Part shown: piece after piece, positions 24,180-62,800 of the stretch | Numbering within the stretch: the first letter of the stretch is position 1 | Layout of the letters: each line of letters opens with the position of its first letter | Assembly (NCBI RefSeq): GCF_964204645.1 | Contig: NC_134034.1 | Coordinates: 12,777,962-12,841,961 of the forward strand | From: Tubulanus polymorphus | Taxonomy: Eukaryota > Nemertea > Palaeonemertea > Tubulaniformes > Tubulanidae | Reading direction: 5' to 3' | Length of the DNA: 64,000 bases | The notes under the pieces: generated by a model | Seen by the model: only the letters and a program-made list of their open reading frames with translations | What the model was told of the DNA's origin: nothing | The model's database searches: none | Program-made: the position numbers and the translations under genes

Positions 24180-27100
24180 TACTTGTAGATTTTCTGATGA
24201 GTAGTTGATCTCAAGCTGGGTTTTTTCTCATAGTTGATATTAAGCTGCAATAATTAAAAGAAGATATCCTGTAATGACCAAATATTTCAATAAGAATTAA
24301 TCGTAATAATTTCATGTATATCAAGTTACCTTTTATGATTGCTGGGTTTGTTATCGGCGATTATCTTATTAGTTGATTGGTTAATGAGTTCGATCCTAGT
24401 TGGCTGTGCACCGTTCAAGTTGGTCGATTTTGGACGAGTAGTTGTTCTCAAACTTGGTTTTTTTCGCATAGTTGAAATTTAGCTGCAATGATCAAAAGAA
24501 GATATCCTTTAATGACAAAATATTTCAATAAGAATTAATCGTAATAATTCCTTGAATATCAAGTTACCTTTTATGATTGCTGGTTTCATTATCAGCGATT
24601 AACTTATTAGTTGATTGGTAAATGAGTTCGATTCTGTTGGCCTCATCTGTGCGCCGTTCAAGTTGGTCGATTTTGGACGAGTAGTTGATCTCAAGCTGGG
24701 TTTTTTCTGATAGTTGAAATTTAGCTGCAATGATTAAAAGAAGATATCCTGTAATGACAAAATATTTCAATAAGAATTAATCATAATAATTCCATGTATA
24801 TCAAGTTACCTTTTATGATTGCTTGGTTTGTTATCGGCGTGGATCATCTAAAGTTTATGGGTTAATGAGTTCGATTCTGTTGGCCCCATCTGTGCGCTGT
24901 TCAAGTTGGTCGATTTTGGACGAGTAGTTGATCTCAAACTGGGTTTTTCCGCATAGTTGAAATTTAGCTGCAATGATTAAAAGAAGATATCCTGTAATGA
25001 CAAAATATTTCAATAAGAATTAATCGTAATCATTCCATGTATATCAAGTTACCTTTTATGATTGCTGGTTTCATTATCGGCGATTATCTTATTAGTTGAT
25101 TGGTTAATGAGTTCGATCCTAGTTGGCTGTGCGCCGTTCAAGTTGGTCGATTTTGGACGAGTAGTTGATCTCAAACTGGGTTTCTTCTTATAGTTGAAAT
25201 TTAGCTGCAATGATTAAAAGAAGATATCCTTTAATGACAAAATATTTCAATAAGAATTAATCGTAATAATTCCATGTATATCAAGTTACCTTTTATGATG
25301 GCTGGTTTCATTATCGGTGTGGATCATCAAAAGTTGGTGGGTTAATGAGTTCGATTCTGTTGGCCTCATCTGTGCGCTGTTCAAGTTGGTCGATTTTGGA
25401 CGAGTAGTTGTTCTCAAACTGGGTTTTTTCGCATAGTTGAAATTTAGCTGCAATGATCAAAAGAAGATATTCTGTATTGACAAAATATTTCAATAAGAAT
25501 TAATCGTAATAATTCCATGTATATCAAGTTACCTTTTATGATTGCTGGTTTCATTATCGGCGATTATCTTGTTGATTGGTTAATGAGTTCGATCGTAGTT
25601 GGCTGTGCGCTGTTCAAGTTGGTCGATTTTGGACGAGTAGTTGATCTCAAGCTGGGTTTTTTCTTATAGTTGAAATTTAGCTGCAATGATTAAAAGAAGA
25701 TATTCTGTAATGACAAAATATTTCAATAAGAATTAATCGTAATAATTTCATGTATATCAAGTTACCTTTTATGATTGCTGGTTTCATTATCGGCGATTAT
25801 CTTATTAGTTGATTGGTTAATGAGTTCGATCCTAGTTGGCTGTTCGCTGTTCCAGTTGGTCGATTTTGGACGAGTAGTTGATCTCAAACTGGGTTTTTCC
25901 GCATAGTTGAAATTTAGCTGCAATGATTAAAAGAAGATATCCTGTAATGACAAAATATTTCAATAAGAATTAATCGTAATAATTCCATGTATATCAAGTT
26001 ACCTTTTATGACTGCTGGGTTCATTATCGGTGTGGATCATCAAAAGTTGGTGGGTTAATGAGTCCGATTCTGTTGGCCTCATCTGTGCGCTGTTCAAGTT
26101 GGTCGATTTTGGACGAGTAGTTGTTCTCAAACTGGGTTTTTTGGCATAGTTGAAATTTAGCTGCAATGATCAAAATAAGATATTCTGTATTGACAAAATA
26201 TTTCAATAAGAATTAATCGTAATAATTCCATGCATATCAAGTTACCTTTTATGATGGCTGGTTTCATTATCGGCGATTATCTTGTTGATTGGTTAATGAG
26301 TTCGATCGTAGTTGGCTGTGCGCTGTTCAAGTTGGTCGATTTTGGACAAGTAGTTGATCTCAAGCTGGGTTTTTTCTTATAGTTGAAATTTAGCTGCAAT
26401 GATCAAAAGAAGATGTCCTTTAATGACAAAATATTTCAATAAGAATTAATCGTAATAATTCCATGTATATCAAGTTACCTTTTATGATTGCTTGGTTCGT
26501 TATCGGCGTGGATCATCTAACGTTTGTGGGTTAATGAGTTCGATTCTGTTGGCCTCATCTGTGCGCTGTTCAAGTTGGTCGATTTTGGACGAGTAGTTGT
26601 TCTCAAACTGGGTTTTTTCTTATAGTTGAAATTTAGCTGCAATGATTAAAAGAAGATATCCTGTAATGACAAAATATTTCAATAAGAATTAATCGTAATA
26701 ATTTCATGTATATCAAGTTACCTTTTATGATTGCTGGTTTCATTATCAGCGATTATCTTATTAGTTGATTGGTTAATGAGTTCGATTCTGTCGGCCCCAT
26801 CTGTGCGCTGTTCAAGTTGGTCGATTTTGGACAAGTAGTTGTTCTCAAACTGGGTTTTTTCGCATAGTTGAAATTTAGCTGCAATGATCAAAAGAAGATG
26901 TCCTTTAATGACAAAATATTTCAATAAGAATTAATCGTAATAATTTCATGTATATCAAGTTACCTTTTATGATTGCTGGTTTCATTATCAGCGATTATCT
27001 TATTAGTTGATTGGTTAATGAGTTCGATTCTGTTGGCCCCATATGTGCGCCGTTCAAGTTGGTCGATTTTGGTCGAGTAGTTGTTCTCAAACTTGGTTTT

Positions 27101-27350
27101 TCCGCATAGTTGAAATTTAGCTGCAATGATTAAAAGAAGATATCCTGTAATGACAAAATATTTCAATAAGAATTAATCGTAATAATTTCATGTTTATCAA
27201 GTTACCTTTTATGATTACTTGGTTTGTTATCGGTGTGGATCATCTAAAGTTGGTGGGTTAATGAGTTCGATTCTGTTGGCCTCATCTGTGCGCTGTTCAA
27301 GTAAGTCGATTTTGGGCGATAGTATACTAAGTTACCTTTTCTGATTGCCG
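24180..27350 (-). repeat. Array of ~13 exon-like ~240 bp units
   Basis: Each unit, on the minus strand, has an acceptor-like ttttaatcattgcag, an ~155 nt stretch that can encode a coiled-coil-like peptide (core SSKIDQLEQRTDEANRIEL), and a donor-like cataaaag|gtaactt, then ~85 bp of AT-rich spacer. Units begin near 24321, 24560, 24801, 25046, 25281, 25525, 25760, 26000, 26240, 26475, 26715, 26957 and 27200, with a decayed unit at the left edge. Two 3' halves alternate (one ending STNKIIADNETSNHKR, the other NPPTFDDPHR and a stop). Several units have 5- or 4-nt deletions or in-frame stops, so most are not coding in a common frame. I treat the array as an amplified exon/intron segment, probably nonfunctional. 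Confidence 0.7.
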
Positions 27351-42400: not shown

Positions 42401-45400
42401 TTACTGAGCAGAGCGTTTATCAGTTCACAACAACGAGCTTTCACATCACCTACAGTAGAAACAAAATTAGAATAAATTTTAATCCTGCATGGATCCAGTT
42501 CCGCAGTTTTAAGTTTAATTTAACTCTTAAGAGTTGAAAATGATCTGATTTTAACTCGGAGTTAACTCCTCACTCACTATACTGTGGAACTGGACCGTGC
42601 TCACAACTAGCTACATTCTAACAACTCCTCTCACTGCTCACAACTCATTTCAGTTTCATTTCCTTCAATCAGATCTTATCTATGCTCATCTTGACCTCGA
42701 GGCAGACATCCTCCCCTAAACATGGGTTCCCACAGATAAACCCAGCACCCTATCAATCCCCCCAGTGAGCCCTCTCCACGAGAATGAAATTTCCATTCAC
42801 ATGATCTCCCCAATTTACTTCTTCTCTCATAACTTTGGTGATTCTCACCGGGGTCCACAGGGGCGGATCCAGGATCCAGACCCCAGTTGCTCAAAGGTTG
42901 GTTAGAGTTAACCAGTGGATAGTTGACATAGTGACAATTAAAAGTTCATTGTTTCTATGGTATTTATCCACTGGTTATCTTTAACCAACTTTTGAGCAAC
43001 TCGCCCCAGGATAACTAGTGACACTTGTAAATACGCCCATCAAATTTTCTTAGTGCCCTTTTTCATTTTGGTGCATTTCATTGTGGACTGTACGCTTGAT
43101 ATAGTCTTATTGGGACGTGACCAGCCCTTCAAAACTGGCCTCTTGGTTCGCCCCTGGTCCGGCGCTACAACTCACCTGATAAACCTTTTCCTCTCTGATG
43201 CGAAGAAACGGTTTCCGTAAATATCTGTTTAAACCGTTTTAACCGTGTGTAATAAAACGGGTTTAGCATCTCGAGACGTTTGATCACGCCGTAAGCCGTC
43301 GTCGCGGTTTCAATCAATCGTAAATACGGCCGAACTTTCGACTCGAGTTCCCGCACGTTCGAATTCGTATCGGATAAAATCAGTTCGTTTTTAGCCAATC
43401 GTTCGCGACATTCGTTCAAATCGTCGAGCAACGTGTCGTCTGCTAATAACGACGTCTGCAGATCCACAATTTTACTCTTGATCTTTTCCTGAAAAAATAA
43501 AAACTCGATCTAAATTCATTAATAATAACTTTTTATTTTCCCTCGAATTACAACACGATTATACATACAAAATCATATAAAAGAATACAAGGGTTACAAC
43601 TGTTATATATAAGTGTCATCATGGGCGCATAGACTAGTGTTAAGGTCTAGTCTATACGAGTCTATCATTCAAGAATGAATCCTAATCACGCTTTAATTCA
43701 GTATGTCGAAAACCGCAGCGTATTGATGGAATTAGTTTTTATCTTTAATGAAAGATGGCAGCACTTGTCGAACAGTGAAATGTAGATAACTAATGATACA
43801 CCGCACCACGGTGTAGACGCACTATAGCGGTCGGTATTCCCGTTATTCAGCACGCTTGGATGGAATTTTTTGAAATTTCAAAATTATCTCCAGCATTTTC
43901 AGGTATTAATTAGTCAGCACTGAAAGGGTTGACTTAAGGCGCTTATTACATAAATTACATTAAACAAATTTCTGGGTTTAATGAATCAATTGAAACTGAC
44001 GAATCTAAATTAGACAGATTTTCTGACTATGATAGCGAAGGTTCTATTTCCCGATTGTCTCCCCCGGTAAACCCGGTGTCCTGTCATGTGGCATATGGTG
44101 GATAACGGTATTTGACTCACAACCGATAGGTTGAGGGTTTCGAATCCTAGTGAAACCATGTTATTCAGGCAGGACATATATCAGTGCCGGTCGACTCACT
44201 GATTTAACGACAAAAGTTTAAAAATCTTCAATATGATGAAGTGACCAGTAACCGAATGAATTATTGAATTTTTTTACCTGTTCGCCTTGAATGTTCGTTC
44301 GTTGATTGAATATTTCCGTTTCGTACGAGCGAAGTTGAGCCTCGTATTCGGGACGTTCGTAGCTCATCGTTTCCATCCACAGCCAGTTCGCTAACCCTTC
44401 CTCGTTCATCGATAGATCGATTAGAATCAGTTTATTCAACGTTAAACCGTTCGACTCGACGCCAGCACGTCCTACAAAAACATTCACCAGACGCTTCAGT
44501 CAACGATAGATGTAAAATGAATGAATACCGGTATATGCTCTACAAGGATCTAATTATCACTTAACTTTAAGAGCTGTCTAACAGACAGATGGATGGACAG
44601 ACAGACAGACAGGCAGACAGACAGGCTGACTTACCCTGCAGTGTAAGAGCTGTCTAACAGACAGATGGATGGACAGACAGACAGACAGGCAGACAGACAG
44701 GCTGACTTACCCTGCAGTGTAAGAGCTGTCTAACAGACAGATGGATGGATGGACAGACTTACCCTGCAGTGTAAGAGCTGTCTAACAGACGGATGGATGG
44801 ACAGACAGACAGACTGACTTACCTTGCAGTGTAAGAGCTGTCTAACAAACGGATGGACAGACAGACAGACAGACAGACAGATAGACAGATAGACTTACCC
44901 TGCAGCGTAAGAGGTGTTGACATACTGAGATACAATCTGAAATTCTCATGATATTTGATTTGTCGCGTTGATATTTTGATAGTTTTTGTTCCGTCTGCTT
45001 CTGTTTGATATTGTTTATGAATTAAACTCTGATAAACGACGTCCAGTGGTTTCCTCTCTATATTCGTTATCAGTAACGCGTAACCTAGCAACACAACAAT
45101 CGATATTAGACGAGCTGCTCTGATTGGCTAATCGGTACACCGATGATGTCATAAATGGTTACCTTTAGATACGGCCTGTTCGACGTAATCGTCTAGAAGT
45201 TTATCGGTCGATTTAACGACTCTTACGCCATCTATTGGCGGTTTTAGTACCGGCCGATCGTCGCTACGAGGCGTAAACAAACTCTCGATATCGAACACGT
45301 GATTCACAGCCGTAAAATCATCGATACTCGAGAATTTCGATATTCCTCGAGATATCGTCGATAACTGACTGTAAAAATATCGAAATATTTATCAAAGATC

Positions 45401-48400: not shown

Positions 48401-50740
48401 TGACCCCCTAAACACCTGACCCCCCTAAATACCTGACCCCCTAAACACCTGACCCCCCTAAACACCTGACAAACTAAACACCTGACAAACTAAACAGAAA
48501 TCAGAACCCAGGCCCACTAGCGTTGTATCTCATTGGGCTCTAAGTATCTGTTTCTTAGTTGATAATGGAAACTTTAGGGATGAACAATCAGCGGGGCCGA
48601 GTTGCACAGTTATCGCTTACATCTAAGACACAAACCCTAGATCGATGAGAGTCCGGCAGCTTCCCTGCCATTTCCAGAGAGGTGGTTCTCTCATTCATTC
48701 CCCCCAGAGAGGTGGTTCTCTCATTCGACCCCCCCTCCTAATAACGATATTCACAAATCAATCGCACGAACCTTTTTAGCCTCGGATTCGGCATCCATCA
48801 ATTTCGCCAGCCTCGGTTTCATTCCGCGGAAGATCGTCGCATAACGATAAATAGCTTTAATCCAGTGACATAGCAACGACGTCGCTAGGCTGATAGAACG
48901 GATTTTATCCGAATCGAACAACGGGTTTTCCACGTACGACGTCAAACCTTCGTAAACGTCGTCCGACATTTTATCTTTGTCGTAAAACTGTAGGTCGTTG
49001 AAGAAACTGTCTTTCAATAAAAGCAGTTTTGCTTCTTCCCAACTGGAAAAACAAAATACACATTGAATCAATTCATTATCAACAAATAATTGTATATTAT
49101 GCATTTTGTATGTACATAATTGTTAACTATTCTTTAATGATGAAATAAACTTTACATTACATTGTGAACAAATTACAGAATTAATAGATCTAGTATTACA
49201 TTGTTACCAGGACCCAGTTTCACAAAACAGTTAAACTCAAATTTTTGGTGTAATTGCAATTGATTACTTCATGTTTTCGATGAGGACAACAATTCAAACT
49301 TAACTGTTTTAGGATTAAACTTTTTCGTGAAACTGGGCCAAGAGGTTGATTTCATCATAGACCAGCAGGGGCTGCAGTCGCTCAAAAGTTGGTTAAAGAT
49401 AACAAACGGACAAATATCATAGTAACAATGGATTTTTGATTGTCACTATGTCAACGTTTATGGTGCGAATGCCTGTCTTTGAAACCGGACACTGGACTCA
49501 AGTTGAACTTGGACCAGGTGCCAGTTGGTCAAAAGTTGCCTAGTGAGTTAACCATTGAATAGTTGACATAGTGACAATTAAAAGTTCATTGTTACTACGG
49601 TATTCATCTGCTGGTTATCTTTAACCAACTGGCCCCCCTGGTTTCTTAAATGAACCGATGAGCAACAACTCTTAATTTCAAAAATTTATCTATCAAACTT
49701 ACTTTTGTGGTTTATTGAACATTAAGCAGACGGCATCTAAAACGACCCTGACCCCGTGCGGAGGAGAGGGGAACGATTTGATTTCGGCGATCGCTTCTTT
49801 ACTCAGACTTTCAAGAGCTTCCAGAGCTGCGTAATAAATCGGGTTGATCTAAAAATGACATCAAAAACAATCTTCAGGAATAGAATATTCATTAAAAATT
49901 CCTCTCAAAATATCACCTCGAATCATAAACACAAAATCAATGGGATAGAACACTAATAATACAAAGAATTCGGCAATATTTCCATGAGCTGATGGACCAG
50001 TATTGCTTAAGATTTCTTGCGCAGTATTGCTGAATATGACTAGTAAGATTTTGTCAAAACGTCGCAATTGATTCAAGTCAAATTGTTAACAAACAAAAGA
50101 AAAGCCATAAATAAATCTAGAAGAGTTTGTGTGAACTGTGTCTAGAAAGAGGAACAGACCTTGTCAAACAGATCTGCCATGAGGGGGGGAGGTGTAAACA
50201 GACCTTGTCAAACAGATCTGCAATAGGGGAGGGAGGTGTAAACAGACCTTGTCAAATTCGGCTTGTGCTTTTTTCTTCAGATCAGCCATCGGACCGAGTA
50301 AACCGCTGATTTGTCCTTCCTCTTGTTTACACGATTCTAACGCCGTCACGTACGCCGATTTGTGTTTCTCGACCGATTTCACTTTGTCGTCGACGACGCT
50401 CATCGCCGAGCGATATTTCGGCATCAGTTTGTCGACCTCCGTCTGGTGTTTGGCGATTCGCTCTTCTGCTTTCTTCACTCGATCCAACGCGGCGTCGTGT
50501 CTCATTATATTCATCTACAATTAGTGTTACATTTATTACATGCACCATCAACAGTTTTCCACAATTGTCCACGATTCCGCCAGCGACTCAAAAGTTAAAT
50601 CATTGGAAAATGAACTAAAAGATCGAGTTAATGAAGTAATTAAATCATGATGAGACGAAAAGATACACATTATCCGTGTACGATGATAACGAGAGAAATC
50701 CCACAATAACGAAGCCAAAACGAGAAACTTGAATAGAAGA

Positions 50741-59800: not shown

Positions 59801-62800
59801 CGTCGTAAGAGGTCATATGAAGGTCGTCGAGTACGAACAGTAGATTGTTGGGTATTTTCGCCGCTGTAGCCGTGGTAACATTAGGAGCGGCGTTACCGGC
59901 AGACGAGCGTTTGTTGCGTAATTCACCGACGTGTCTCATCAGACCGTTACGTAGTTTCTCAGGGGTGAACGAATCGGTCGAACAAACGAATCTACAACCG
60001 CCTGCATTCTTAGGTACAATTACACTCTACATAATACAATACAAATACATAATCAATATCAGCGCCCTCTACCGGTGACCTTACAAATTGAGACCTCAAC
60101 AAGCCTTGCTTCAACAAGCTTGTACTTTTGTGGCCTCATCCAAGATTTGACTCTGTCAGAGGTCTCATGTAAAGATTTCTTATTCTGAGCGTGTGCGGCC
60201 TCATCAAGTTTAAAGCCCTAACCTCATCAGGTTCTGAGGTTTCATCAAGGGTTTTAGCCTCTACCTGAGGCTGAAAAGATTGGTGGCTCCAATGTCAACC
60301 ACTTCCATCTGACACAGTCTCCAGTTTATGAGTTCGTTATACATCAGTGAAATTCACAGTCAGGAATCCACAGTCAGGCCTCGATTCAGAGAAAGTTTCT
60401 AAAACTTTGTAATTCTTTAAGACTGGCAGCTGCTAGTACAAAGACATACCTGGCAGCAGCTAGTAATTAGACACGTACCTGGCAGCAGCTAGTAACTAGA
60501 CACGTACCTGGCAGCAGCTAGTAACTAGACACGTACCTGACAGCAGCTAGTAACTAGACACGTACCTGGCAGCAGCTAGTAACTAGACACATACCTGGCA
60601 GCAGCTAGTAACTAGACACGTACCATGCAGCAGCTAGTAACTAGACACGTACCTGGCAGCAGCTAGTAACTAGACACGTACCTGGCAGCAGCTAGTAACT
60701 AGACACGTACCTGGCAGCAGCTAGTAACTAGACACGTACCTGGCAGCAGCTAGTAACTAGACACGTACCTGGCAGCAGCTAGTAACTAGACACGTACCAT
60801 GCAGCAGCTAGTAACTAGACACGTACCTGGCAGCAGCTAGTAACTAGACACATACCTGGCAGCAGCTAGTAACTAGACACGTACCTGTAAGAGTGAAGAT
60901 TTCCCGACTCCCGGAGCACCGGTCAGTAAAACCTGCTGATTACTTGACACCAGTAAATCCATTATATACACATAACGCTCCAACTGTCGATGAGAAACAT
61001 AATGAGTTACCAGAGATTGACTCCATTACACTGAATAAGGATTTAATTTGAGTCATTAATTAAAGAGTCACCAGAGATTGACTCCATTACATCGAATAAG
61101 GTTTGAATTTGAGTCATAATTTAAAGAGTCACCAGAGATTGACTCCATTACAATGCATAAGGATTGAATTTGAGTCATCAGTTAAAGAGTCACCAGAGAT
61201 TGACTCCATTACAGTGCATAAGGGTTGAATTTGAGTCATCGATTACCTCGGGAGTCATCAGATATTGGATGCCGACATTTTTCGGTTTCGTTTCGACTTT
61301 CGTCCATCTGACGAGCGAACCTGATTTCATATCAACGCAATAATCGAACACCGACCCGTCGTCGGGGACAACAACGCGATGAGCGTCGCGAAACATTGTC
61401 TGACGAACGAAATGATCGAATTTCTCGACGCAACTGGAAAAATTTCAAACGAGTTCATTTGATTTTGAATTTGTATCGAAAAGCAAGGGTCACATCTGTA
61501 AAGACCTAGGGGCCAGGGCCCAGTTTCACGAAAAAGTTTAAGCCTAAGACGGTTAAGTTTGAATTGTTGTCCTCATTGAAAACATGAAGTAACCAATAGC
61601 AATTACACCAAAAATTTGAGTTAACTTTTTTGTGAAACTGGGGCCAGTTGCTCAAAAGTTGGTTAAAGATAACCGGCTGACATATACCATAGTAACAATG
61701 AACTTTTCATTGTCACTATGCCAACTATTCACTGGTTAACTCTAACCAACTTTTAACCAACTGGCCTCGGACTTAGATTAAATTCTGTCTTAGGCCACCT
61801 TTTTTTCTATAGACCAGCTAACAATTTACAATCAATGAAGGATTTAGGAGTACCGCGGCCAAACTTCCAAAGTTCATAGCTTAGATTTAAGACCAGTATT
61901 AAGACTATCTTAACTGTATATCCAATATTACAGTACAAGGGACCAAGGGACCAGTTTTAAGAGTCATTTTTGGACTGAGATCATTTTTGGACTGAATTAA
62001 CAACTGCTCTGGCGTCTGCAGTTGCTCAAAAGTCAAAAATTGATGATTTCAAAAACTGAACTAATTTGAAAGTTATTTTCGGACTGAGATCATTTTTGCA
62101 CTGAATTAACGACTGTGCCCCCCCCCTGGCATTTGCAGTTACTCGAAATTCAAAAATCGTTGATTTCAATAGTCGCCATGTCGGTTATAAACTAAACTAA
62201 TTGTTACCTCTCGTGAAGTTGACCTCCGAATCCCCAGATAAACGCGTACGTGAAAAGCGCTTTCACCGAGTTGATATAATTAGGGAAGTTTTCCTCTATG
62301 ATCGCGCTCGATTGACTGCTCTGATAGCTGCGAGCGCTCCGCGACGAGTTACGCCCTCCACCTCCGCTCTGAGACGACCTCGGTCGTAACCGCGACGCCG
62401 CACTACCAGCGGCGGTATTGTTATCCGATTCAAACTGAGCTACAAACAAAAATACCGAACACACAGAAAATCATGACGTCTGAAAGTTAAGTTAACCCTT
62501 TCAGTGCGTCTACACCGCAGTGCAGTGTATAAATCAGTGATAGATTTTGGTACTACACTGCGCCGCGGTGTAGACGCAATATAGTGGTAATCCCGTTATT
62601 CAACACACTAGGGTGGAATTTTTCAAAATCTTCAAATAATCTCGAGCACTATAGGGTCAGCACTGAAAGGGTCAAGTCAAGTTAAGATTTAAGAACGACT
62701 CGAACCTTTTCTTTGCATTTGTTTTTCGAGTTCGTCCCGCAATAGATAACGTTCCATCAGCGCCGACAATATCTTCAACGTCGCCGACACCTGATGAATA

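Follow-up and report, generated by a model that had tools for sequence, protein, structure and literature searches.

We asked whether a short tandem repeat that carries a splice site with it supplies a gene with working microexons. The question is raised by a minus-strand gene in the 64,000-nt stretch of DNA analysed here (the window), where an initial annotation proposed that a dynein exon is followed by four 15-nt units, that each of these could be spliced as a cassette, and that repeat number would therefore directly set microexon number. Our gene model identifies the gene as a dynein heavy chain, and its three typed exon sets match the Pfam families AAA_9, AAA_7 with Dynein_AAA_lid, and AAA_8. 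The exon in question (44899-45084, minus strand), which was defined by sequence, gene model, Pfam and structure comparison, belongs to the AAA_9 region and has an upstream phase of 1. Read off the sequence, it ends in CTCTTACGCTGCAGG followed by the 5′ splice site GTAAGTC, just as had been stated. Compared with solved structures, the first exon set matched 30 distinct sequences, mostly named dynein heavy chains with DNAH6 as the best, and the matches include both axonemal chains and cytoplasmic dynein 2. The intron position falls in the loop after the FRLYL strand, where the encoded protein and DNAH6 differ in length. The earlier placement of this loop in AAA5 agrees with the Pfam AAA_9 assignment of the spliced region, AAA_9 being what we take to be the AAA5 module of dynein. 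The expected partner of the 44899 donor is the next large dynein exon (44278-44471, minus strand; gene model and splice-site scoring), whose acceptor TTTTTGTAG is accompanied by branch-like motifs. An exact pattern search of the whole genome found no genomic copy of the 44899/44471 junction, a result that is not informative either way on splicing.

The 5′ splice site of this exon is spanned by a minisatellite at 44568-44898 (minus strand; sequence, TRF and alignment), which consists of four full extra units and a broken fifth boundary ending in a CTCTTA direct repeat at 44568-44573. The range first proposed, 44575-44899, was mostly right, and the array is slightly longer, reaching that broken boundary. 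The four units are found at exactly the coordinates given in the initial annotation, and each is built of TTAGACAG, a 15-mer and GTAAGTC. Copy 1 (CTCTTACACTGCAAG) lies at 44823-44837, with an acceptor-like ACAG before it and GTAAGTC after it, and copies 2, 3 and 4 (each CTCTTACACTGCAGG) lie at 44763-44777, 44711-44725 and 44635-44649, respectively (all minus strand; sequence and splice-site scoring). ACAG on the 5′ side and GTAAGTC on the 3′ side flank all four 15-mers, and the units hold 15 nt of exon end, the donor and the start of the intron, making the array a tandem repeat across an exon-intron boundary. Homology and position support the view that the 15-mers are copies of the exon end, but they are near-copies with substitutions and not exact ones: base 8 is G in the exon and A in all four copies (ACG to ACA), and copy 1 additionally has CAA where the exon has CAG. 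Both substitutions are synonymous in the frame of the exon.

TRF reports the repeat well over threshold, with a best row at 44568-44758 (76-bp unit, 98% match, score 368), overlapping rows of periods 52, 60 and 76 within 44568-44872, and 4- and 12-bp rows besides. When the exon end and the four copies of the one haplotype are aligned, length change is restricted to the TGTC/CCAT tract, the copies show one base difference in all over GTTAGACAG, the 15-mer and GTAAGTC, and units 3 and 4 are identical across 85 aligned columns. The exact 22-mer of copies 2-4 has three matches in the genome (267.8 Mb, 77 contigs), all at this locus, so it is not a dispersed element. A search with Rfam at gathering scores gave no match within the 64-kb window.

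The alignment also points to how the array began. The stretch shared by exon and copies opens with CTCTTA, and a CTCTTA also closes the last unit, beyond which the intron has diverged; at the broken fifth boundary, GACAG/CTCTTAAAGTTAAG, this closing CTCTTA is the one at 44568-44573. Because the array is bounded by this direct repeat, it probably arose by tandem duplication. We infer that a CTCTTA in the exon end and another in the intron would have served as the direct repeats between which the duplication took place, and that the copied segment reached from the exon's final 15 nt across the 5′ splice site to the intronic GTTAGACAG. Later growth would have brought the array to four extra units, with slippage altering the length of the TGTC/CCAT tract. 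The single base difference among the four copies indicates that the array is young, and the retained splice motifs thus need recency alone and are no sign of selection. We conclude, with a probability of roughly 85%, that 44568-44898 is a mirage-type minisatellite across an exon-intron boundary whose copies are passive and most likely not working exons. As to splicing, we infer that the 44899 donor would most likely be joined to the 44471 acceptor, with the extra donors and weak acceptors mostly ignored.

Mirages are known from amphioxus, where exon-intron boundaries of Adh3 and of the globins BflGb6 and BflGb9 are duplicated in tandem in a minisatellite-like way (PMC3087553), and TnC has also been named as a mirage gene (PMC3902484). 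In the first report, AG and GT signals are present on many but not all of the repeats, one array has six and three units in two haplotypes, and Adh3 data together with globin RT-PCR suggest that regular splicing is undisturbed (PMC3087553). The dynein array shares with these the boundary-spanning units, the copied AG and GT signals found on many mirage repeats, the varied unit length and an exon portion in each unit; it differs in that its exon portion is only 15 nt and in that it is known here from the DNA of one haplotype alone. If its copies are passive, it brings one more gene into the mirage class. The authors who described mirages propose that the exon portion of a repeat may later become a real exon (PMC3087553). 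Their proposal partly anticipates the microexon idea, and it is the short exon portion that makes each dynein unit look like a microexon. In intron gain by tandem genomic duplication, the new intron reportedly arises inside an exon, whereas the dynein copies lie within an existing intron; what is alike is the tandem duplication that copies splice-site-like sequence (PMC4974935). In lancelet PGBD5, repeats of 60 bp and 108 bp abut 5′ splice sites; an exon had been predicted inside them, which the authors excluded (PMC3902484). There too arrays start at the 5′ splice site and an extra exon is predicted inside them, but the PGBD5 units are longer and the predicted exon larger, at 57 residues (PMC3902484). 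Regulated microexons share the size class (27 nt or less) but are expressed exons, whereas the dynein copies are known from DNA and have a weak acceptor context (PMC8378409). Titles and abstract openings among the literature matches listed for microexons and tandem arrays contain no such case.

Could each copy nevertheless be spliced as a cassette, as first proposed? The coding arithmetic holds: a copy is 15 nt long, enters in phase 1, contains no stop and on translation adds ALTLQ in frame. The splice signals bear out less of the claim. Scored with weights that follow a general metazoan consensus, and ranked among the 84 acceptors and 84 donors of exons that are themselves ab initio predictions, the copied donors are strong (92nd-98th percentile) and the ACAG acceptors weak (10th-17th percentile). 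TTAG, 4 nt upstream of ACAG, scores higher (29th-39th percentile) and its use would yield an exon of 19 nt that shifts the frame. One of the four copies has a yTnAy motif at -15 to -47, compared with 59 of the gene's 84 predicted acceptors. Use of the copies as recursive or zero-length exons was also considered and set aside, copies 2-4 reading CAGGGTAAGT and not AG/GT.

The spacing of the units bears on the claim that repeat number sets microexon number. The distance from the exon to copy 1 is 61 nt, followed by 45, 37 and 61 nt between successive copies. The smallest introns that the ab initio exons predict in the gene are 49 (doubtful), 75, 77 and 78 nt (n = 83), introns under 40 nt being beyond the reach of both gene models. 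At other dynein loci the smallest is 74 nt (n = 56, from overlapping loci with some introns counted twice), under a model that accepted introns down to 30 nt, though it probably merged small exons or passed over them; on C3 near 4.80 Mb, profile matches lie 27-93 nt apart, most of them overlapping in the profile, and intron lengths there are uncertain. With a minimum intron of 70 or 74 nt, five of the 16 inclusion patterns are possible (none, copy 2, copy 3, copy 4, and copies 2 and 4 together), and none of the five includes neighbouring units jointly. Because most predicted introns are longer than these spacings, microexon number cannot be a simple function of unit number, and this part of the initial annotation conflicts with the spacing.

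Our first gene model did place small exons in the array. Its best path used TTAG to build three 19-nt exons (44823-44841, 44711-44729 and 44635-44653), which sum to 57 nt, in frame, and come with introns of 57, 93 and 57 nt; they are among six exons of 10-19 nt that this model placed within arrays. Since tiny exons were also modelled in arrays at 60.4-60.9 kb and 40.3-41.3 kb, we treated the 19-nt exons as an effect of strong copied donors and discarded them along with the other tiny exons modelled in repeats. The filtered model dropped 18 of 102 predicted exons (<60 nt, repeat-rich or with a non-positive coding score).

Two further arrays of the same gene each span a 5′ splice site. One, at 50153-50256 (minus strand; sequence, scoring and translation), is made of 44-bp units such as TTGCAG/ATCTGTTTGACAAG/GTCTGTT and has cassette-like copies of 14 nt at 50204-50217 and 50160-50173 (minus strand), which by scoring and translation break the frame. 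Its acceptors, at the 90th and 67th percentile, are stronger than those of the 44568-44898 array, and thus a microexon signature arises without a coding role. The other, at 60423-60887 (minus strand; sequence, gene model and scoring), has a 29-bp unit, follows directly on a P-loop exon at 60885-60983, and contains 15 extra donor-like sites with a score of at least 5, mostly CAG/GTACGT. The AG/GT sites in it could in principle serve as acceptor and donor at once.

To estimate what chance would yield, we simulated 56,448 tandem duplications, placing them at 5′ splice sites predicted in the gene itself. Of these, 26.1% created a cassette whose acceptor equalled or exceeded that of copy 2 in strength, and 8.4% an in-frame open cassette of that strength. 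An AG exactly at the junction was seen in 6.2% and a junction acceptor of copy-2 strength in 1.26%, while the exact layout (a junction acceptor of that strength, in frame and open) was reached in 0.45%. The precise layout is therefore uncommon by chance, and in-frame microexon look-alikes are not. In all three splice-site-spanning arrays, acceptors that equal or exceed this strength precede copied donors by 14-29 nt (in the 29-bp array, in seven of the eight copies listed), and this excess, three of three arrays against 26% per simulated duplication, is unexplained.

These results set the terms on which other explanations can be weighed. The low chance of the exact layout, the excess of such acceptors before copied donors, the strong copied donors, the synonymous nature of the substitutions and the modelled 19-nt exons all count against regarding the copies as passive. 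If the copies were instead real cassette microexons, adding ALTLQ to the AAA_9 region in the loop that follows FRLYL, singly or as non-adjacent pairs, their open 15-nt phase-1 frame and high-ranking donors would be accounted for, insertion would fall in a loop already unlike that of DNAH6 in length, and copies 2, 3 and 4 singly or copies 2 and 4 together would be feasible if an intron needs at least 74 nt. The ab initio model, too, picked tiny exons here, although as 19-nt exons through TTAG. That TTAG would cause a frameshift per copy, however, while the ACAG acceptors are weak, three of the four copies lack yTnAy, the spacings are too short for inclusion of neighbours, and the second array's 14-nt copies break the frame in spite of stronger acceptors. 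We judge this explanation improbable. Cassette use of the copies is thus possible but unlikely, and their rare inclusion could conceivably occur on sequence grounds. An extended form of the idea would make the array a coding VNTR whose effect comes by way of splicing: 15-nt units, alone or in non-adjacent combination, would be included at a low level, giving zero to two ALTLQ insertions according to the unit number of the individual, and the 5′-splice-site minisatellites of the gene would keep yielding trial microexons. We hold this, too, to be a long shot.

The extra donors could also act without any microexon, either as alternative 5′ splice sites giving regulated non-productive transcripts or as decoys that bind U1. 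All four rank high among the gene's donors, extension of the exon to them brings a premature stop in four of four cases, and another array of the gene has 15 donor-like sites of its own. Set against this, the unit alignment gives no sign of conservation beyond recent copying, and the amphioxus mirages were reported to leave splicing undisturbed (PMC3087553, PMC3902484); we give such a role little credence. It is highly improbable that misassembly of a repetitive tract, by collapse or by expansion, produced the array. The identity of units 3 and 4 over 85 columns would fit such an error, but the sequence and length of the tract vary among the other units, and there are many arrays nearby with units of various kinds. 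A passive minisatellite of the mirage type is accordingly our preferred explanation. If it is correct, splice-site minisatellites can pass for tiny exons, both to readers and to gene predictors, ours among them; if the copies were used, they would offer a direct route from repeat number to protein isoform.

Beyond this array, intronic arrays in the gene are found near 5′ splice sites more often than expected, which is a new finding here. In the gene as counted (minus strand, window positions 36000-64000 and sequence beyond the window), 41 arrays occupy 36 of 83 predicted introns and make up 29% of intron bases. Fifteen of the 41 have their start no more than 20 nt from a 5′ splice site, where 5.8 would be expected, and none of 5000 random placements reaches 15. 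The null places arrays at random within the same introns and leaves out constraint on the 3′ ends of introns, a factor that by itself would shift arrays 5′-ward. The excess depends on the cut-off: 5 arrays against 1.1 expected start within 3 nt, 5 against 3.1 within 10 nt (P = 0.18), 18 against 8.0 within 30 nt and 25 against 14.1 within 60 nt. At 3′ splice sites there is no excess, with 4 arrays against 5.8 expected within 20 nt and 9 against 14.0 within 60 nt. The 44568-44898 array starts at 26 nt by TRF and so is not among the 15. A test made independent of exons agrees, with a donor scoring at least 8 near the transcription-upstream edge of 8 of 42 arrays and near the downstream edge of 2; the corresponding counts on the opposite strand are 0 and 0. 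This clustering raises the possibility that tandem duplication is seeded by the exon-intron boundary itself. Other dynein loci contribute seven array rows in 15 partly overlapping 3-kb loci, three of the rows being intronic and two of these the same array, and with so few arrays there the bias is established for one gene only.

The gene sits in repeat-rich DNA. The window and the next 40 kb contain 77 arrays covering 22,335 of 104,000 nt, compared with 21 arrays covering 3,523 of 200,000 nt in a stretch of another contig, which is apparently gene-poor (four exons passed a filter of 75 nt and 25 bits there, as against 60 nt and 15 bits for the window and its 40 kb). Merged, the arrays of the window (positions 1-64000) number 46, a very high density of minisatellites. 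The contig around the window is 14.3 Mb long and ends about 1.5 Mb away. The window also holds a 243-bp tandem array at 24199-27323, with about 13 copies at 89% match.
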